This document shows positions 44,106 to 52,191 of a DNA stretch of 64,000 nt, piece by piece. Every line of letters begins with the position of its first letter. Position 1 is the stretch's first letter. Under the pieces are notes generated by a model that had not been told where the DNA came from, did no database searches, and was given only the letters and a program-made list of their open reading frames with translations. The position numbers were made by a program, and so were the translations under genes. This DNA comes from Cyanobium sp. AMD-g (GTDB lineage: Bacteria > Cyanobacteriota > Cyanobacteriia > PCC-6307 > Cyanobiaceae), in NCBI RefSeq assembly GCF_024346395.1, contig NZ_JAGQCW010000002.1, positions 372,001-436,000 of the forward strand, read 5' to 3'.

Positions 44106-44280
44106 CGATGCTTCAGGAAGGGGTCGGCCTTCGGCCGTCAACGTATCGGCCCGGAGGGTCATCTCAGGCCACCGGGGCATAGACGTGTGGATCATTGTCG
44201 CGATCCGCCTGTTCCAACCGTGTGGCAGCGGTCACCAAGACATCCATCAGACTGGTGCCGGGTCCTGCACCTGCCTGTCA

Positions 44281-44892
44281 GTGATCGCCACGTCCCCCTC
44301 CCCTGCCCGAGGCCCCAGCCCCCTGTGGACCCGGGCCTTCCACGCCTTCAACCTGCTGGTGCTTCTGCTGATGGCCGCTAGCGGCCTGCAGATCTACAAC
44401 GCCAATCCGGTTTTCGGCGGGAGGGAAGGGGCCACCGTGCCCGAGCTGTTCACCCTGGGCGGCTGGCTGGCCGGTGGCCGCGATTGGCACTTCGGCATCA
44501 TGGGTCTCTATGGGGCCAATCTGGGGCTCTGGATCGGTCTGCTGCTGCAGCGGCGCCATCGGCGACTGGCCGGTACGGGTGATCTGGGCACCCTGCGCAG
44601 CAGCGTCAACCCCCCCAGACGGCGCCTGGCCAGCCACCGGATCACGTACACCCTGATGCTGATCGTGCTGGCCTTCAGCCTGATCACCGGACTGGCCATG
44701 TACAAACCGGCCCAGTTGTGGTGGCTGGTGTCGCTGTTCGCCTTCGCCGAGCCCGCCGGTCACTCCAGCTGGCAGACCCTGCGGGTGTGTCACCTGGCCA
44801 CCATCCCGGCCATCGCCCTGCTGCTGGTGGCGCACGTGGTGCTCTCCTGGCGGGTGGGAGGCCTGCGGCTCTTGCGGGCGATGTTTCTCTGA
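44281..44892 (+). CDS. Cytochrome b561-like membrane haem protein, partner of a Mo oxidoreductase
   Basis: 203 aa starting at GTG 44281 (the frame is open from 44185, but the extra residues are atypical). Four membrane helices with histidines that would ligate two haems: FHAFNLLVLLL, HFGIMGLYGANLG, SHRITYTLMLIVLAFS and CHLATIPAIALLLVAHVVL. This is the bacterial b561/YedZ-like module that delivers electrons to or from the next gene. The Mo enzyme starts 17 nt later. Confidence 0.85.
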   Translation: MIATSPSPARGPSPLWTRAFHAFNLLVLLLMAASGLQIYNANPVFGGREGATVPELFTLGGWLAGGRDWHFGIMGLYGANLGLWIGLLLQRRHRRLAGTGDLGTLRSSVNPPRRRLASHRITYTLMLIVLAFSLITGLAMYKPAQLWWLVSLFAFAEPAGHSSWQTLRVCHLATIPAIALLLVAHVVLSWRVGGLRLLRAMFL

Positions 44893-44908: not shown

Positions 44909-45619
44909 ATGGCTTCTTCCTCCGACCCCCTGAGTCGCCGCCGGTCCCTGGGCCTGCTGCTTGGGGGCGGCTCGTCCCTGCTGCTCGGTGGCTGTGCCCT
45001 CAACGACTGGAGCGAGACGGTGGGGGAGGCCACCCAGCCGCTGAACGAACGGATCGAGGCTCTGCTCCAGGGGAAGCGCAAGCTGCCCGAGTTCCGTCGC
45101 AGCCAGGTGGAGCCCACGGCCCTACTGATCAACAGCTTCAACGGCATGCCCGAGATCGCGCCTGGCAGCTACCGGCTGGCCGTCAACGGGGTGGTGAGCC
45201 GTCCGCTGCAGCTGGATCTGGCGGCCCTGGCCGCGCTGCCCCAGCAGGAGTGCGTCATCCGCCACGTCTGCGTGGAGGGCTGGGCGGCGATCGTCGCCTG
45301 GTCGGGACCGCGGCTGGCCGATGTGCTGGCCCTGGCGGGCCCCTCTCCCCTGGGCGCCTATCTGGCGATCCGATCGGCCGATCAGTACTTCGAAACCTGG
45401 GATCTGGCCTCCGCCCGGCACCCCCAGACCCTGCTCGCCACCCACATGAACGGGGTACCGCTGCCCGCGGCCAACGGCGCTCCTGTACGACTCGCCAGCC
45501 CCATCAAGCTCGGCTACAAGCAGAGCAAGTGGGTCACCGGCCTCGAACTGATGACCAGCCTGGGTGAACGGCTGGGCACCTGGGAGGACCAGGGCTACGA
45601 GTGGTTCGCCGGGCTCTGA
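44909..45619 (+). CDS. Molybdopterin-dependent oxidoreductase, sulfite oxidase/YedY (MsrP)-like
   Basis: 236 aa. An N-terminal twin-arginine-like stretch (SRRRSLGLLLGGGSSLLLGG) is joined to a lipobox with Cys29 (LLLGGCAL). The sulfite oxidase fold shows the Mo-ligating cysteine in RHVCVEGWAAIVAWSG (Cys121), and ANGAPVRLASPIKLGYKQSKWV. Length and lack of a dimer domain fit YedY/MsrP, a periplasmic sulfoxide reductase. The b561-type protein encoded upstream would supply electrons. It depends on the mobA/moaA/moaB products, although YedY enzymes use plain molybdopterin. Confidence 0.87.
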   Translation: MASSSDPLSRRRSLGLLLGGGSSLLLGGCALNDWSETVGEATQPLNERIEALLQGKRKLPEFRRSQVEPTALLINSFNGMPEIAPGSYRLAVNGVVSRPLQLDLAALAALPQQECVIRHVCVEGWAAIVAWSGPRLADVLALAGPSPLGAYLAIRSADQYFETWDLASARHPQTLLATHMNGVPLPAANGAPVRLASPIKLGYKQSKWVTGLELMTSLGERLGTWEDQGYEWFAGL

Positions 45620-45634
45620 GGGCTACGCCGGCCC

Positions 45635-46885
45635 TCAGGGCCGCACCAGCCCTGTGGGCACGTCCTTCTGGCCGGCTTCGCGCAGCAACTCCTGAATTGT
45701 CCGTTCGGAGGTGTCGTAGGCGCCTTCTCCGAAATGAGTACGCCGGATACGGCCCTGGCTGTCGATGAAATAGAAGGCCGGCCAGTACCTGTTGTTGAAG
45801 GATTTCCAGATGGCGAAGTTGTTGTCGATCACCACCGGATAGGTGAGGCCCAGCTTGCGGACGGCGGCTCGCACATTGCCGAGGTCGCGCTCGAAGGCGA
45901 ACTCGGGGGAATGAACACCGATCACTACCAGGCCGTGGTCCTTGTACTTGCTGGCCCAGGCCCGCACATGGGGCAGGGTGCGCAGGCAGTTGATGCAGGA
46001 GTAGGTCCAGATGTCCACCAGCACCACCTTCCCCCAGAGCTGGTCGCGGCTGAGGGGCGGCGAATTGAGCCAGGTGGCCCCCTTCGGAAAGGGCGGCAGC
46101 GTGCCCAGCACGGGCAGGCGGCTCAACGCAGGGGCGCTCTCGCTGGCTGCCTCGGGGGGCGGAATTCTGGCGAGCAGGGCCTGCTCGAGTCGGTTGGTGT
46201 CCGCCAGGGCCCAGCCGGCGAAGGCGGTCTGTTCCAGGCCCATGGTGCTCACCCCCACCGCCGCAAGCACGGCGGCCCCCAGCCCGCGGCGCAGCCAGAC
46301 ACCGGCCCCCAGCGAGCGTCTGAGAGTGTTGGCCAGTCGACCGCCGGCCAGCAGTGCTACCGCCAGGGAGGTGGCAGCACCCAGGCCGTAGGCCAGCAGG
46401 AGCAGCAGGGCGGTGCCGGTGTTGTCCCCCCGCAGGGCCGCTCCGGTGAGGATCATCCCAAGGATCGGCCCGGCGCACGGAGCCCACAGCAGCCCAACCG
46501 CCACCCCCAGCAGGGCCGAGGCGGCGATGGCCTCGCCCCGCCGTTGCGCTCGATCGGAGCGGCGCGAAAGGCTGGCGCCCAGGCTTACCAAGGGCCGGCT
46601 GAGTCGATCGGCCAAGGCCGGCCAGAGCAACGCGAGGCCGAACAGGGCCAGCAGCGCCAGGGCCGCCATCCGCCCCCACCGGTGGGCCTGCACCACCCAG
46701 CTGCCGCCCAGGACCGCCAGGCTCGCCATGGCGGCGAAGGTCAACACCATGCCGGCCAGCAGGGGCAGGGTGTTGCTCCGGAAGGAATGACCCACCCGGC
46801 TGAACACGAAGGGCAGCACAGGCAGGATGCAGGGGCTAAGGATGGTCAGCAGGCCGGCGAGATAGGCCAGCAAGGGCAGGGCCAT
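45635..46885 (-). CDS. CcdA/DsbD-type membrane protein fused to a thioredoxin-like (TlpA) domain
   Basis: 416 aa from the ATG at 46885. Residues ~1-225 are a CcdA-like membrane domain: LTILSPCILPVLPFVFSRVG with the cysteine of the first repeat and LLWAPCAGPILGMILTG with the second. Residues ~285-416 form a periplasmic thioredoxin domain with VDIWTYSCINCLRTLPHVRAW (CxxC variant CINC) and VVIGVHSPEF. The pair passes reducing equivalents across the membrane to periplasmic disulfides, for example for cytochrome maturation. Located next to the Mo/b561 genes but on the other strand. Confidence 0.88.
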   Translation of the reverse strand: MALPLLAYLAGLLTILSPCILPVLPFVFSRVGHSFRSNTLPLLAGMVLTFAAMASLAVLGGSWVVQAHRWGRMAALALLALFGLALLWPALADRLSRPLVSLGASLSRRSDRAQRRGEAIAASALLGVAVGLLWAPCAGPILGMILTGAALRGDNTGTALLLLLAYGLGAATSLAVALLAGGRLANTLRRSLGAGVWLRRGLGAAVLAAVGVSTMGLEQTAFAGWALADTNRLEQALLARIPPPEAASESAPALSRLPVLGTLPPFPKGATWLNSPPLSRDQLWGKVVLVDIWTYSCINCLRTLPHVRAWASKYKDHGLVVIGVHSPEFAFERDLGNVRAAVRKLGLTYPVVIDNNFAIWKSFNNRYWPAFYFIDSQGRIRRTHFGEGAYDTSERTIQELLREAGQKDVPTGLVRP

Positions 46886-46935: not shown

Positions 46936-47655
46936 TCAGGGGGCTGCGGGAGCCACCGCTGGAGTGGGTGACGGGCAGCGCATCGCCTTGTAGTCGCAGG
47001 CGTAGACGGTGGCTTTCTGCCAGCTGAGCGGAATCTCGAGCAGATCCCTGGGCCCTGTGAGGCCCTGGGCGAGGAAGATCAGCGCCGCCAGGAGGTTGGC
47101 GCTGATGTGCAGCCGTCGCCAGCGCAGGTGCCGGTGGATCTCGGGGCGGCTGGCCACCGAGAACAGCATCAGCCCGACCAGACCGATGCCCCCCCAGAAA
47201 TGCGACTGCCAGAACACCGGTTCCAGGGGGTTGTCGCTGCGACGGAACACCTCGGGCTGCAGGCCCAGGCCGATCGCTCCGGCCCAGCAGAGCAGGGCGA
47301 AGCTGGCCCGGTAGAGGGGCCGCTTCACGCGCCACAGCGCGGCCAGCGCCACCACCGAGCCGGCCAGCACTAGCACCAGCATCGCCAGCCTCGGCAGTCC
47401 CCCCTCGAAGGCCGCCAGGGGGTGCTTCGTCGCGATCACCACCGCTTCGGCGATCAACACGATCGCCACCACGGCCGCAGCCAACCACTGGCCCAGATCG
47501 ACATGGTCCCGGCCCACGGTGGGGGGATGCTTGACCTGGGTGAGGCGGCGGTCACGGGTCTGGCGCGCCAAGCGCAGCACCATGCCCAGCAGGGGGTAGA
47601 CGAGCACCACCGCCAGGGCGGGGTGGAGCAGCCAGAGCCAGTCAACGGCGTTCAT
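46936..47655 (-). CDS. DUF4079 membrane protein
   Basis: 239 aa, about six membrane helices. LLHPALAVVLVYPLLGMVLRL at the start, and HKxHPxxxG-type loop KHPPTVGRDHVDLGQWL, then FWGGIGLVGLMLFSV and LRWRRLHISANLLAALIFL. DUF4079 proteins are nearly restricted to cyanobacteria and plants; their conserved histidines suggest haem binding as in b561-like proteins. Function unknown. It lies 7 nt downstream of the start of the DM13 gene region, same strand. Confidence 0.87.
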   Translation of the reverse strand: MNAVDWLWLLHPALAVVLVYPLLGMVLRLARQTRDRRLTQVKHPPTVGRDHVDLGQWLAAAVVAIVLIAEAVVIATKHPLAAFEGGLPRLAMLVLVLAGSVVALAALWRVKRPLYRASFALLCWAGAIGLGLQPEVFRRSDNPLEPVFWQSHFWGGIGLVGLMLFSVASRPEIHRHLRWRRLHISANLLAALIFLAQGLTGPRDLLEIPLSWQKATVYACDYKAMRCPSPTPAVAPAAP

Positions 47656-47662
47656 CCGCGGC

Positions 47663-48166
47663 TCAGGGCTTGAGGGGTGCCCAGGCCATGGTGGCGTTGA
47701 ACTTCTGGCACCAGATCAGCACCGATTTCTGGGCCTTGAGGTCGATCGAGGCGGGGATCACGTAGCTCTGGCCCCCCTTGCTGGATTTCAGCTTCGAGAG
47801 CAGCGTGTAGCTGCCGGGCTTGAGGGGAAAGGCGGGAGCCTTGCTCATCGCCAGGGGCGTGGCGGAGGGGCTGAAGGCCACCCAGAGATCGGGGGCCATG
47901 TCGTTGGTCTTGAAGTCGCCGCTGAGGGTGAGCACCGTCCTGCCGCCCTGCTCGCTGATCGAGAAGCCGCCGCTGACCGGAGCCTCCGCCTTGCGGAAGC
48001 TGCCGCTGGCCTTCGCCATGGCCTGGGCCACCGAACCCAGGACGGGGGTGATCGGCGCGACCTGGGGGAGGCCGAGGCTGCGGGCGGGGAGGACGGTGCC
48101 GGAGAAGGCCGCCGCCGCCACCAGGGTGAGGGCGCCGGTGAGGACGGTGCGGGGGGAGCGGGTCAT
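47663..48166 (-). CDS. DM13 domain-containing exported protein
   Basis: 167 aa from the ATG at 48166. Signal peptide (RTVLTGALTLVAAAAFSGTV). The mature part has a DM13-like fold (~residues 60-165): VSGGFSISEQGGRTVLTLSG, DMAPDLWVAFS, and a closing QKSVLIWCQKFNATMAWAPL, with the conserved Cys near the C terminus. DM13 is proposed to be a redox domain accepting electrons from a DOMON/b561 partner; DUF4079 immediately downstream is a natural candidate. Confidence 0.82.
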   Translation of the reverse strand: MTRSPRTVLTGALTLVAAAAFSGTVLPARSLGLPQVAPITPVLGSVAQAMAKASGSFRKAEAPVSGGFSISEQGGRTVLTLSGDFKTNDMAPDLWVAFSPSATPLAMSKAPAFPLKPGSYTLLSKLKSSKGGQSYVIPASIDLKAQKSVLIWCQKFNATMAWAPLKP

Positions 48167-48276: not shown

Positions 48277-49197
48277 TCAGGTGATCGGCACGGTGCGGTC
48301 GAGGGCGTCGAGATTCACCAGGCGGCGCCCCCGGCTGTCGATGGACACCAGATCGGCGAAGGTCCGGCCCTGGAGAATGTTCTCGATGCGGTAGTGGTGG
48401 ACCTGGAGCAGTGACGATCCCGTCACTTCGTCGGAACCCTCCACCAGCACCATCAGGGCACCGCTGACCCGGGCGATAGCGTCAAGACCCAGCTGGACAA
48501 GGGGACTCTCCGGGGTGAGCGGATGGCTCAGCACCGCCGTCACATGCAGCTGGGGCGTGGAGGCGTTCAGCAGCGGCAGCGGGTGCACACGGCGTTGCCA
48601 CAGCCCCGGTTCCACTTCCTCATCGACGAACAGGGCCATCGTGTACGACACCTTCAACCAGTAGCTGGGGTCGGCGGTGACGAAGCGGCAGCTGAGGTGA
48701 CCACCGGGCCAGGAGCTCAGGCACAGCTGGCGGCTGAAGCGCAACGGGGAATCCACCTGGGTGAAGCGCAGGAAGAACAGGCCCGTGACCATGGCGGTGG
48801 TCAGGATGCCGACGATCCGCTGGCCCGCCGCCAGGCCCAGGGTGTAGGGGGAGTTGACCCCGGCGGACTGGAAACTGGCGCTGAACATGTTCTGCAGGGC
48901 GAAGATGCCGCTCGCAGACAACCCCATCGCCCCGTCGGCCTCCACATGGCCTGGATCCAGCTGAAACGCCAAAGCGAAGATCAGCACCTCCGCCAGGTAG
49001 ATCAGCGTCATCGCCAGAAAGAAGACCGGCCAGGGCATCCGCATCGCCATCGACACCGGCTGGCGCCAGAGGCTGGTCCAGGGGCTGCGCTGGTGGTCGA
49101 GTGTGCGGCGCGCCGGCCGTGACAGCTGGCTCAGGATCGTGGGGAGGCGCACAACAACGACCCGATGTCGACGCCCGGAACAGTAGGAGCGCTCCAT
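48277..49197 (-). CDS. Inward-rectifier K+ channel-like (Kir) protein lacking a canonical selectivity filter
   Basis: 306 aa from the ATG at 49197; later GTG codons at ~residues 13-16 are alternatives. The Kir order is clear: slide helix SPWTSLWRQPV, TM1 ~57-78 (VFFLAMTLIYLAEVLIFALA), pore helix ~98-110, TM2 ~123-143 (GQRIVGILTTAMVTGLFFLR), the short linker QVDSPLRFSRQ, and a beta-sheet C-terminal domain ending with GRTFADLVSIDSRGRRLVNL. The expected TVGYG filter is replaced by SFQSAGVNSP (~108-117), so potassium selectivity is doubtful. Function unknown; it is divergent from an EamA transporter, with 9 nt between the starts. Confidence 0.75.
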   Translation of the reverse strand: MERSYCSGRRHRVVVVRLPTILSQLSRPARRTLDHQRSPWTSLWRQPVSMAMRMPWPVFFLAMTLIYLAEVLIFALAFQLDPGHVEADGAMGLSASGIFALQNMFSASFQSAGVNSPYTLGLAAGQRIVGILTTAMVTGLFFLRFTQVDSPLRFSRQLCLSSWPGGHLSCRFVTADPSYWLKVSYTMALFVDEEVEPGLWQRRVHPLPLLNASTPQLHVTAVLSHPLTPESPLVQLGLDAIARVSGALMVLVEGSDEVTGSSLLQVHHYRIENILQGRTFADLVSIDSRGRRLVNLDALDRTVPIT

Positions 49198-49206
49198 CCT
49201 GGGCAG

Positions 49207-50205
49207 ATGACGGTGCCGATTTCGATGGGCAGCACTCGGCGGCCGGTCCCGGGTCTGCTGCCGCTGCTGCTCTATGTGCTGCTGCGGGGGCTGGATGCCA
49301 CCGTGCTCAAGGGACTGCAGGAGCTCGGTCTGGCCAATCCGGTGCAGGGCGAGAACCCGATCAGTTTCTGCAACGTGTTCTTCCTGGCCCAGCTCACGGT
49401 GGCTCTGGCGGCGCTGATCCCCGGACGGCGCAGCCTGGGCAACGACCTGGCGCAGCTGGGGCCAGCTGACCGGCGCCTGCTCGCCCTCCACGGCGGCCTG
49501 GGCCTGTTCCTCGGGCCCGTGGCCTACTACCTCGCCCTGGAATCCCTGTCGGTGATCAGCCAGACGCTGCTGTTCGCCCTGGTGTTGCCCGTCTCCGCCG
49601 TGCTGGCGCGCTGGCTGCTCGGGGAGGCGCTCCCCGCCGGCTTCCGGCTCAGCCTGGTGCTGATCGGTGCCGGGCTGGTGCTGCCCCAGGCAGCCACGGC
49701 CATGGGCAGCGGCCGGATGGATGACGCCGCCGGCCTCGCGTGGGCCCTGGTGGGGGTGCTGGCCTTCGCCGGCTCGGCCGTCAGCGGCCGCGCCATCGCC
49801 GCCCGCCGCTGGCCGGCATCGGTGGCTGTCGGCGTTCCCACCCTGCTGAGCGCCCTGGTCTTCGCGGCCATCGCCCTGGTGCTGTTCGGACCGCAGCATT
49901 TCCTGCTGTTGCGCCTCTGGTGGGTGGTGGGGGTGATCGGCCTCTACGCCATCACCCTCTCCCTGGGCCGCGAACTGGCCTTGCGCCAGGCCTATCGCCG
50001 CTGCAGCGTGGCGGTCGTCTCCCTCTGGAGCTCCCTGGCCCTGGTGGTGGCGGTCCTCAGCGCCGCCCTGTTGCTGGGGGAACCGCTGGGCATCCCCGTG
50101 CTGGCCGGTGCGGCCCTGGTGCTGGCCGGTGTGTTCGTCAGCCGCCGGCCGGGCCCCATCCGATCGCGGCCTTCGCCGGTATCCGAAGCACGGCACCCCC
50201 GCTGA
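49207..50205 (+). CDS. EamA (DMT superfamily) transporter
   Basis: 332 aa, ten membrane helices in two EamA repeats (~residues 15-150 and 175-320). Typical features: LRGLDATVLKGLQ, ALESLSVISQTLLFALVLPVS, and WSSLALVVAVLSAALLLGEP closing each half. It moves an unknown small molecule across the inner membrane. The ATG at 49207 was chosen over 49165, because the latter would overlap the divergent gene. The C-terminal tail is Arg/Pro-rich. The sigma factor gene starts 13 nt later. Confidence 0.88.
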   Translation: MTVPISMGSTRRPVPGLLPLLLYVLLRGLDATVLKGLQELGLANPVQGENPISFCNVFFLAQLTVALAALIPGRRSLGNDLAQLGPADRRLLALHGGLGLFLGPVAYYLALESLSVISQTLLFALVLPVSAVLARWLLGEALPAGFRLSLVLIGAGLVLPQAATAMGSGRMDDAAGLAWALVGVLAFAGSAVSGRAIAARRWPASVAVGVPTLLSALVFAAIALVLFGPQHFLLLRLWWVVGVIGLYAITLSLGRELALRQAYRRCSVAVVSLWSSLALVVAVLSAALLLGEPLGIPVLAGAALVLAGVFVSRRPGPIRSRPSPVSEARHPR

Positions 50206-50218
50206 ACACCCCCCGGTC

Positions 50219-50800
50219 GTGAATCCCTCCGACGCCGAAGCCCCCCCCCGCCGTCCCCCCCTGCGGGGCGCCCTCGAGGGTGCCACCGATGCTGCCGCCG
50301 ATCTGGCGGAGTTGTACGACAGCTGCAGCGGTCCGGTGTACCGCCTGGCCCTGCGGTTGTGCCGCTCCAGCCACGAAGCCGAAGACCTCACCCATGACGT
50401 CTTCCTGCGCTACTGGCAGCAGGGGCGTTACGACCCGGCCCGGGGTCCGGTTCTGGCCTATCTGCTGCTGCTGACGCGCTCGATGGCCATCAACCGCCTC
50501 AACCAGCGCGCCAACCGCTGGCAGCTGGTGCAACGCTGGTCGGAGCACCTGTTCCCAGCGGCCGTGCCAACGCCCCACGACCGTGCCGAATCCGAGGATC
50601 TGGCCGAGAGGGTGCGGGGCGCCCTCGCGGCCATCCCCGCCAACCAGCGTCAGGTGCTGGAGATGGCCTACTACGAGGGGCTGAGCCAGTCGGCGATCGG
50701 CGCGCTGCTGAAGCTGCCCCTCGGCACCGTCAAGACCCGCGCCCGCCAGGGGCTGATCCGCCTGCGCGCCCTGCTTCACGACTCGCCCGACCAGCCATGA
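50219..50800 (+). CDS. ECF RNA polymerase sigma factor
   Basis: 193 aa starting at GTG 50219. Region 2 has ELYDSCSGPVYRLALRLCRS and HEAEDLTHDVFLRYWQQGRY, region 4 has AIPANQRQVLEMAYYEGLSQ then SAIGALLKLPLGTVKTRARQ. It belongs to the RpoE/SigK-like ECF group with an adjacent anti-sigma gene: its stop overlaps the anti-sigma ATG (50797-50800). The double ChrR-type cupin gene follows. The set resembles a singlet-oxygen/oxidative stress regulon such as RpoE-ChrR. Confidence 0.92.
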   Translation: MNPSDAEAPPRRPPLRGALEGATDAAADLAELYDSCSGPVYRLALRLCRSSHEAEDLTHDVFLRYWQQGRYDPARGPVLAYLLLLTRSMAINRLNQRANRWQLVQRWSEHLFPAAVPTPHDRAESEDLAERVRGALAAIPANQRQVLEMAYYEGLSQSAIGALLKLPLGTVKTRARQGLIRLRALLHDSPDQP

Positions 50801-51498
50801 CATCCGACACCACCCCTGCCGACGCCGACCGCATCGACGCCCTGCTGGCAGGCCATGCCCTGGGAGACCTGGAAGAAGCCGAGCGGGAGCAGCTGGCCGT
50901 GCTGCTGCGGCAGCGGCCCGAGCTACGCCTGCGCCAGGAGGAGTTCAGCACCACCCTGGAATTGCTGCCGCTGGCGCTGCCGGCCACGGCGGAGCCTCCC
51001 GCCGCCCTGCGCCGGCGCCTGCTGCAACCCCGCCCCCAGCGGGGTCAGTGGCGGCGTTGGCTGGGCCCCTCCCTGCTGGCCGTCGGCGTGCTGCTGCTGG
51101 GCGGTGAGCTCTACCAGACCCGCCAGCAACTGGCTGACCTGCAGCGGCAGTGGCCGCCACCCGCCCTGCCCGGTGAACGCCGGATGTTGCCCCTGCAGGC
51201 GGTGCAGCCTGGCCAGACGGCCTCGGGGGAGGTGCTGGTCACCGGCAACCGCACCCACAACCTGCTGAAGCTCACCGACCTGCCGGCGTTGCCGCCCCAT
51301 CACACCTACCGGCTCTGGGCCACCGTGAAGGGGCGGACCGTGGGATGCGTCCATTTCGTGCCCAACGTCCGCGGCCAGGTGGCCATGCCCATCCCCCTGT
51401 CGCCCACCAGCGAGGCCAGCGGAGTCAGCATCAGCGTCGAGGGCGACCCCACCGGCACGGTCCCCAGGGGACCCATGGTGCTCACCAGTTCGATCTGA
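50797..51498 (+). CDS. Membrane anti-sigma factor, RskA-like
   Basis: 233 aa. The N-terminal ~75 residues form an anti-sigma domain (DALLAGHALGDLEEAEREQL), then one membrane helix (~86-106, WLGPSLLAVGVLLLGGELYQ) and an extracytoplasmic RskA C-terminal domain with HHTYRLWATVKGRTVGCVHF and GVSISVEGDPTGTVPRGPMV. It holds the upstream sigma factor at the membrane until a signal releases it. The zinc-binding HxxxCxxC pattern of ZAS anti-sigmas is not seen. The cupin gene begins 3 nt later. Confidence 0.88.
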   Translation: MTSDTTPADADRIDALLAGHALGDLEEAEREQLAVLLRQRPELRLRQEEFSTTLELLPLALPATAEPPAALRRRLLQPRPQRGQWRRWLGPSLLAVGVLLLGGELYQTRQQLADLQRQWPPPALPGERRMLPLQAVQPGQTASGEVLVTGNRTHNLLKLTDLPALPPHHTYRLWATVKGRTVGCVHFVPNVRGQVAMPIPLSPTSEASGVSISVEGDPTGTVPRGPMVLTSSI

Positions 51499-51501
51499 TC
51501 C

Positions 51502-52191
51502 ATGGCCGTCTTTCCCTTCCCTACCGACGTGCATGCCGATCTGGGCCAGCGGGCCGTCGTCGACAGCGATGCGCTGCCCTGGCTCCCCTCCCCCCTGGCC
51601 GGGGTGGAGCGGCGCCTGCTGGATCGCGACGGCGGCGAGGTCGCCCGGGCCACCTCGCTCGTCCGCTACGCCCCCGCCAGCAGCTTTTCCCCCCATCGCC
51701 ACGGCGGCGGCGAAGAGTTCCTTGTGCTGGAGGGTGTCTTTTCGGATGAGCACGGTGACTACGGCCCGGGCACCTACGTGCGCAACCCGGTCGGCTCCGC
51801 CCATGCCCCCTTCAGTGCGGCCGGCTGCACCATCCTGGTGAAACTGCGGCAGATGGATCCGGCCGACCAGACGCGGGTCGTGATCGACACCCGGCGCTCT
51901 GTCTTCGTGCCTGGCCTGGTCGCGGGCCTGACCGTGCTGCCCCTGCACGGCTTCGGGACCGAACAGGTGGCCCTGGTGCGCTGGCAGCCGGACACCCGCT
52001 TCCCTCTCCACGCCCATCCCGGGGGCGAGGAGATCTTCGTGCTCGACGGGGTGTTCGAAGACGAGCAGGGTGCCTATCCGGCGGGCACCTGGCTGCGCAA
52101 CCCGCCCGGCAGCCGCCATGCGCCCTTCAGTGGCAGCGGCTGCCTGATCTGGGTCAAGACCGGCCACCTTGGCCAGGCGAGCTCTGCCTAG
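51502..52191 (+). CDS. Double ChrR-type cupin protein
   Basis: 229 aa with two cupin domains: first (~residues 45-115) PHRHGGGEEFLVLEGVF with His65, His67, Glu71 and His101 as metal ligands, second (~150-225) HAHPGGEEIFVLDGVF and GSRHAPFSG. Both resemble the C-terminal domain of ChrR, the zinc anti-sigma factor that senses singlet oxygen, but the N-terminal ZAS part is missing. With the neighbouring sigma/anti-sigma pair it may act as the sensing element or as an oxidative-stress effector. Its stop is within a CTAG shared with the convergent permease. Confidence 0.88.
   Translation: MAVFPFPTDVHADLGQRAVVDSDALPWLPSPLAGVERRLLDRDGGEVARATSLVRYAPASSFSPHRHGGGEEFLVLEGVFSDEHGDYGPGTYVRNPVGSAHAPFSAAGCTILVKLRQMDPADQTRVVIDTRRSVFVPGLVAGLTVLPLHGFGTEQVALVRWQPDTRFPLHAHPGGEEIFVLDGVFEDEQGAYPAGTWLRNPPGSRHAPFSGSGCLIWVKTGHLGQASSA

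Follow-up and report, generated by a model that had tools for sequence, protein, structure and literature searches.

A cyanobacterial clade of Kir-fold proteins with a conserved loop in place of the potassium selectivity filter

A filterless Kir gene in Cyanobium sp. AMD-g

The window analysed here is a stretch of 64,000 nucleotides from Cyanobium sp. AMD-g (contig NZ_JAGQCW010000002.1, positions 372,001 to 436,000). It contains a gene for a Kir-type protein without a K+ selectivity filter, surrounded by the genes listed in Table 1. The initial annotation of 48277-49197 gave no strand; the plus-strand frame holds stops, and the coding frame is on the minus strand, where 704 codons are open. 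Homologues suggest that the upstream portion of this frame is spurious and that translation begins at the GTG of V16 (49152). In the homologous loci L032-L034, the ATG of M1 of the AMD-g protein has no counterpart, and the GTG at V16 is kept. Residues are nonetheless numbered from MERSYC, at 49197.

Table 1. Genes and residues of the filterless Kir locus, in window coordinates
Feature	Position	Strand	Basis or remark
Cytochrome b561-type membrane protein, beside Moco enzyme	44185..44892	+	open frame; true start probably later
Molybdopterin oxidoreductase	44909..45619	+	best NCBIfam match MsrP, under its cutoff
DsbD_TM (CcdA-like) + redoxin/thioredoxin-like fusion	45635..46885	-	domain matches, synteny
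DUF4079 membrane protein	46936..47655	-	Pfam PF13301; synteny
DM13-domain protein, next gene	47663..48166	-	Pfam PF10517; synteny
Filterless Kir (NirBac-like) gene	48277..49152	-	start probably GTG 49150-49152; possible upstream ATG 49195-49197
Cys170	48688..48690	-	modelled strand 167-174; 26/26 filterless proteins
Cys159	48721..48723	-	modelled strand 158-160; 26/26 filterless proteins
Phe142, bundle-crossing gate position	48772..48774	-	alignment with KirBac1.1 Phe146
S106-A107-S108-F109-Q110, five residues at TxGYG position	48868..48882	-	ungapped KirBac1.1 alignment and homologue alignment
EamA-type transporter, divergent neighbour	49207..50205	+	frame open from 49165; start uncertain
ECF-type sigma factor	50108..50800	+	frame runs into that of EamA; real start probably later
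RskA-type anti-sigma factor	50797..51498	+	

The Kir fold

The Kir-like parts named by the initial annotation are borne out. Slide helix, TM1, pore helix, TM2, the LRFSRQ linker and the Kir cytoplasmic domain are all found, from the sequence, Pfam IRK_C and an AlphaFold model. Against PDB chains, phmmer matches the AMD-g protein to KirBac1.1 (7swj, 1p7b) with an E-value of 3.8e-20; the alignment is gap-free from the slide helix to TM2 and covers residues 41-293, most of the length. KirBac3.1 and then eukaryotic Kirs are the next matches. A profile of the filterless clade described below matches KirBac1.1 at 1.3e-35.

In the profile search that the initial annotation had proposed, IRK_C scores 25.4 bits with the AMD-g protein, above its cutoff of 22.5. 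This domain is present in 26/26 filterless proteins, for which Pfam gives no other family at E ≤ 0.01. PF01007, the Pfam model of the membrane part, has a single match in the AMD-g genome, elsewhere than the filterless gene: it is blind to the filterless clade. A search of the AMD-g protein against NCBIfam gave no match at E ≤ 0.01.

The AlphaFold model (72 rows, mean pLDDT 82.9, pTM 0.71) has KirBac3.1 as its closest structure (Foldseek 2.5e-23), with 264 residues aligned at an rmsd of 3.3 (VIA Z 22.1). With its slide helix, two transmembrane helices, pore helix and cytoplasmic beta domain, the protein belongs to the Kir/KirBac (IRK) fold family.

A clade without the filter

Relatives were sought in 386 genomes of the phylum, of which 73 matched, in 400 genomes of the family (75 matched) and in the contigs of named genomes (7 loci). 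Short fragments aside, identity values split into two ranges with a gap between them: 44-100%, at 27 places in 27 genomes, and 31% or less. One of the 27 places, in G411, is interrupted. The set used for the tree comprises 126 proteins, 26 without GYG and 100 with it, the latter being the fetched, distinct and long-enough filter-bearing matches. L002 (the same as AMD-g), L051 (broken), the second piece of L160 and the short L065, L102 and L074 were dropped beforehand.

GYG occurs in 0/26 proteins of the filterless clade, whereas 100/100 of the others carry [ST][IV]GYG (SIGYG in 69, TIGYG in 22 and TVGYG in 9). The filter change is thus fixed in a clade, all 26 distinct open relatives being without the filter. 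Sequencing error or a frameshift, with intact filters in the homologues, had been named as what would overturn the initial annotation; it is ruled out, since separate genomes contribute 26 distinct open sequences with the loops of the clade.

The 26 filterless proteins are monophyletic in a FastTree phylogeny (approximate likelihood), with a support of 1.0 and a stem of 1.99 substitutions per site. They group, at a support of 0.887, with 38 filter-bearing proteins that all come from the same family, f1, which we take to be the Cyanobiaceae; its named strains with a filterless Kir belong to Synechococcus, Cyanobium and Aphanothece. The 38 proteins alone have a support of 0.36, so that the filterless clade could be their sister group or could branch from within them; with so long a stem, it may also be misplaced. 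The grouping with filter-bearing proteins of its own family suggests, in a tree built without NirBac sequences, that the clade arose independently of those bacterial filterless Kirs. KirBac6.1 of Synechocystis (slr5078) is likewise a cyanobacterial Kir homologue, but it has TVGYG and lies inside the filter-bearing set, represented by L164, the pSYSM_M ion-channel gene that we took to be slr5078.

The replacement loops and the gate

The TxGYG filter of Kir/KirBac K+ channels is absent from the AMD-g protein. The initial annotation had recognized this, though it placed the change at residues 108-117; the position of TVGYG is S106-Q110 (SASFQ), which begins two residues before that stretch does.

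Within the clade the loop is of two types, A (n=15, including AMD-g) and B (n=11). Type A mostly reads F-x-L-Q-N-L-F-S-A-S-F-[QR], with VASLS in L050, and type B mostly F-x-x-[ED]-x-F-F-A-N-[GAT]-F-[NDST], followed by P-D-S. Each type has its own fixed residues: A107 and S108 in 15/15 proteins of type A, N107 and F109 in 11/11 of type B. Residues 96-119 carry a net charge of -1 to +1 in type A and -1 to -3 in type B. Five positions that are invariant in the filter-bearing set (100/100) survive in few filterless proteins or in none, S100 in 5/26, T103 in 0/26, G108 in 8/26, G110 in 0/26 and P114 in 9/26, and the filter tyrosine has become phenylalanine in 25/26. We also considered a Trk/Ktr-type filter, whose TAGFN the SAGVN of AMD-g resembles. 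It was rejected: only AMD-g has glycine at residue 113, where the 14 remaining type A proteins have R, M, K or E.

In contrast to the filter, the gate position is conserved. F142 aligns with F146 of KirBac1.1, which we take to be the bundle-crossing gate phenylalanine, and it is found in 26/26 filterless and 100/100 filter-bearing proteins. The filterless clade shares with KirBac1.1 and KirBac3.1 the fold and the gate phenylalanine, and with KirBac1.1 an ungapped pore alignment; it differs from both in having no K+ filter and in altered positions of the linker and cytoplasmic domain.

AlphaFold predicts the pore loop at low confidence. The model blocks of residues 81-120 have pLDDT values of 65, 70, 63 and 76, and those of a filter-bearing paralogue 95, 94, 81 and 96, from a different input alignment.

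Selection and loss

We estimated dN/dS from pairwise counts within five groups of close filterless genes and two groups of filter-bearing ones. For residues 38-300 it is 0.11-0.24 in four of the five filterless groups, the fifth (B2) being saturated at synonymous sites, and 0.11 and 0.18 in the two filter-bearing groups. TM1 (0.08-0.12) and TM2 (0.04-0.33) follow the same trend: the filterless clade is under purifying selection, both membrane helices included. For the open copies, a decaying gene can be rejected on this ground.

The constraint on the pore is not uniform. In two filterless groups, TM2 is as high as 0.20 and 0.33, compared with 0.05-0.06 in filter-bearing ones; in the AMD-g group the pore helix is at 0.31 and the filter loop at 0.25, compared with 0 and 0.03-0.10. 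Since the transmembrane helices are under purifying selection and F142 is invariant, the pore-forming part is maintained, although in some groups less strictly than among Kirs with a filter.

The filterless gene can also be lost, because some genomes of the family have only an interrupted or partial remnant of it (L063, L064, L065, L066, L067, L068 and L069; G411, G533, G608 and others). The remnants of G533 and G608 have contig positions near DM13 and the Moco gene.

A cysteine pair in the cytoplasmic domain

The cytoplasmic domain had been called conserved. It is kept as a domain throughout the clade, as the IRK_C matches attest, but many of its positions have been switched and fixed anew. 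W180, Y185, N211, Q216 and Q265 are each present in 26/26 filterless proteins. C159 and C170 occur together in 26/26 filterless proteins and in 0/100 filter-bearing Kirs; the pair is a new feature relative to the latter. In 14/26 filterless proteins these are the sole cysteines, by columns aligned to AMD-g. H167, near C170, is found in 24/26, with Cys and Tyr in the remaining two. The hairpin strands around the two cysteines are not identical between the AlphaFold models of the filterless protein and of a filter-bearing paralogue.

Redox genes around the filterless gene

Gene neighbourhoods were compared at 21 filterless loci (L103-L122 and AMD-g, of the 27 places found). As a control we took some of the filter-bearing paralogues of these genomes, 16 loci in 15 genomes, in stretches of 15.5-16.5 kb. 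Seven probes detect redox neighbours at 17/21 filterless loci and 0/16 filter-bearing loci; at 4/21 filterless loci none of the seven is found. Two of the probes, for peroxidase and ferredoxin reductase, were chosen after the type B loci had been seen; the five derived from AMD-g alone give 15/21, with the AMD-g locus itself among the 21. Some filterless stretches are shorter (9-10.5 kb), which biases against the linkage, and the type A loci are mutually related, so that the 21 loci amount to fewer than 21 independent events.

In type A, the slot of the filterless gene within the same-strand set varies among three internal orders: ahead of DM13 (AMD-g, L035), behind the redoxin fusion (L105-L107), or between DUF4079 and the redoxin fusion (L108-L110). 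In type B, the filterless, b561 and Moco genes stand in line in L116 and L118, and DUF4079 and DM13 are near in L112, L116, L120 and L121. A flavin/2Fe-2S reductase adjoins the filterless gene in L112 and is near it in L116, L120 and L121. A KatG-like peroxidase, as two matched stretches, is adjacent or near in L114 and L115; in L114 (5500-8548, single-contig genome G181) only a few bases separate the end of this peroxidase gene (PF00141) from the filterless Kir that follows on its strand.

Co-occurrence was also counted over whole genomes (at least 90% complete), uncorrected for kinship. The Moco gene, with fragments and weak hits excluded, occurs in 16/23 filterless genomes and 19/228 others, DM13 in 18/23 and 45/228, and a filter-bearing Kir in 15/23 and 38/228.

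Regulatory genes stand beside the redox genes as well. In AMD-g, an ECF sigma factor, an RskA-type anti-sigma factor and a ChrR-type cupin lie in a row at 50108-52191. L111 excepted, the type A loci compared have sigma and anti-sigma genes close to the filterless Kir, with the anti-sigma gene alone in L037.

Relation to NirBac and probable function

Filterless Kirs are already defined as a kind by NirBac1.1, 1.2 and 2.1, proteins of Kir architecture without TxGYG (Zubcevic et al. 2015, PMC4607889). They are described from three genes, plus two near-identical ones, in two genera, with the cellular role left open. NirBac1.1 and 1.2 are tetrameric. Their cation flux is non-selective, monovalent and activated by POPG: NirBac1.1 conducts Na+, K+, Rb+, Cs+ and Li+ alike, and NirBac1.2 favours Na+, K+ and Rb+ (PMC4607889). 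By its sequences, the cyanobacterial clade fits the structural half of this definition, a Kir/KirBac architecture with a pore loop lacking TxGYG; the likeness is one of description rather than of sequences compared. NirBacs carry unrelated loops inside one close family, NirBac2.1 reading TTGTD at the filter, and the present clade has two loop types. They differ in their hosts, Anaeromyxobacter and Gemmatimonas for NirBac, with no cyanobacterial lineage named in the accessible part of PMC4607889. Conduction has been measured for NirBac, and the cyanobacterial proteins are known as sequences. A clade-wide cysteine pair and gene linkage characterize the cyanobacterial proteins, and neither is described for NirBac in that part of the report.

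In the KirBac, NirBac, weaver and DM13 literature, with few subscription papers covered, we found no earlier report of a filterless cyanobacterial Kir clade. The cysteine pair (26/26 against 0/100) and the redox neighbours (17/21 against 0/16) are new here. That the Kir K+ filter can be lost stably under selection is shown by an entire clade, which offers two natural replacement loops on one backbone; many of its genomes also contain filter-bearing paralogues that can serve as controls. The gene context points to redox stress, and the role of a filterless Kir in a cell becomes testable in cultured cyanobacteria.

The residue mutated in GIRK2 weaver, G156S, is presumably the first glycine of GYG, equivalent to S108 of type A. 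Ser108 thus replaces this glycine as the weaver serine does, and the weaver mutant loses K+ selectivity (PMC9001731). On the precedent of NirBac and weaver, we favour, at about even chances, a Kir-fold channel whose filter has been swapped for a conserved loop, conducting monovalent cations with K+ selectivity slight or absent, and possibly regulated by redox state. Of the options raised by the initial annotation, a non-selective channel is the best supported by these analogies; for anion conduction we found no positive evidence.

We infer a single origin of the lineage, probably through duplication of a Kir gene, with exchange of the K+ filter for a new conserved pore loop, as in NirBac. A Kir-like tetramer would most likely assemble, retaining a bundle-crossing gate driven by the cytoplasmic domain. 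Monovalent cations would pass with little or no preference for K+. More tentatively, the gate might respond to oxidation or to a bound metal through C159 and C170; the clade-specific pair and the linkage to redox genes suggest it. Such a redox-regulated cytoplasmic domain would face a problem of compartments. Cysteines in the cytosol are normally reduced, and the cytoplasm is probably not where the CcdA-like, DM13 and Moco proteins of the linked genes act.

It is possible, if doubtful, that the Kir fold has been kept as a membrane sensor or scaffold for a lipid, redox state or ligand, with ion conduction gone. The changed filter-defining Thr and Gly positions, the residues newly fixed in the cytoplasmic domain, the relaxed pore loop and TM2 of some groups and the low-confidence loop prediction are all in its favour. 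Purifying selection on TM1 and TM2, the invariant gate phenylalanine and the loop residues fixed in each type speak for a working pore, and NirBacs with unrelated loops do conduct (PMC4607889).

A more specific proposal, which we consider unlikely, is a redox-gated leak without K+ selectivity, independent of NirBac, whose cysteine pair would open or close the pore under the stress of the linked envelope redox system (MsrP-like, b561, DM13, CcdA-like and KatG-like). It would have two alternative pore loops, of which one is close to neutral and the other acidic.

The filterless protein could instead be a subunit that co-assembles with the cell's own filter-bearing Kirs, changing their activity or silencing it. 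Two such paralogues lie on other contigs of the AMD-g genome, and 13/14 good-quality type A genomes have one; however, none was detected in 7/9 good-quality type B genomes, single-contig G181 included, which makes an obligate heteromer unlikely for type B. The paralogues are only ~25-31% identical to the filterless proteins. Nor are the two kinds of gene adjacent: they are ~32 kb apart in G482, the one shared contig among the type A genomes checked, and over 1 Mb apart in G270. Altogether, we regard co-assembly as very unlikely.

TbIRK of Trypanosoma brucei, a eukaryotic, acidocalcisomal Kir homologue without the canonical signature, is a caution to the poorly selective channel that we prefer, since with its GGYVG filter it stays selective for K+ over Na+ by >7-fold (PMC5429665). 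A K+ preference kept through a different backbone geometry is nevertheless very improbable in the filterless clade: type B mostly keeps G108-F109 (8/11), but the type A loop, that of AMD-g included, has neither GYG glycine, with Gln, Arg or Ser at the second.

Two minor observations concern other parts of the family and of the gene. L101 (G511) and L071 (G513) are short filter-bearing Kir homologues, with frames of 280 and 270 aa and an ATIGY filter, distinct from the SIGYG type that is common in the family. The slide-helix codons (49039-49086, residues 38-53) of the eight closest type A genes have a pS of 0.067, compared with 0.30 in the cytoplasmic domain; over these 16 codons, this possibly reflects an RNA-level or overlapping constraint.
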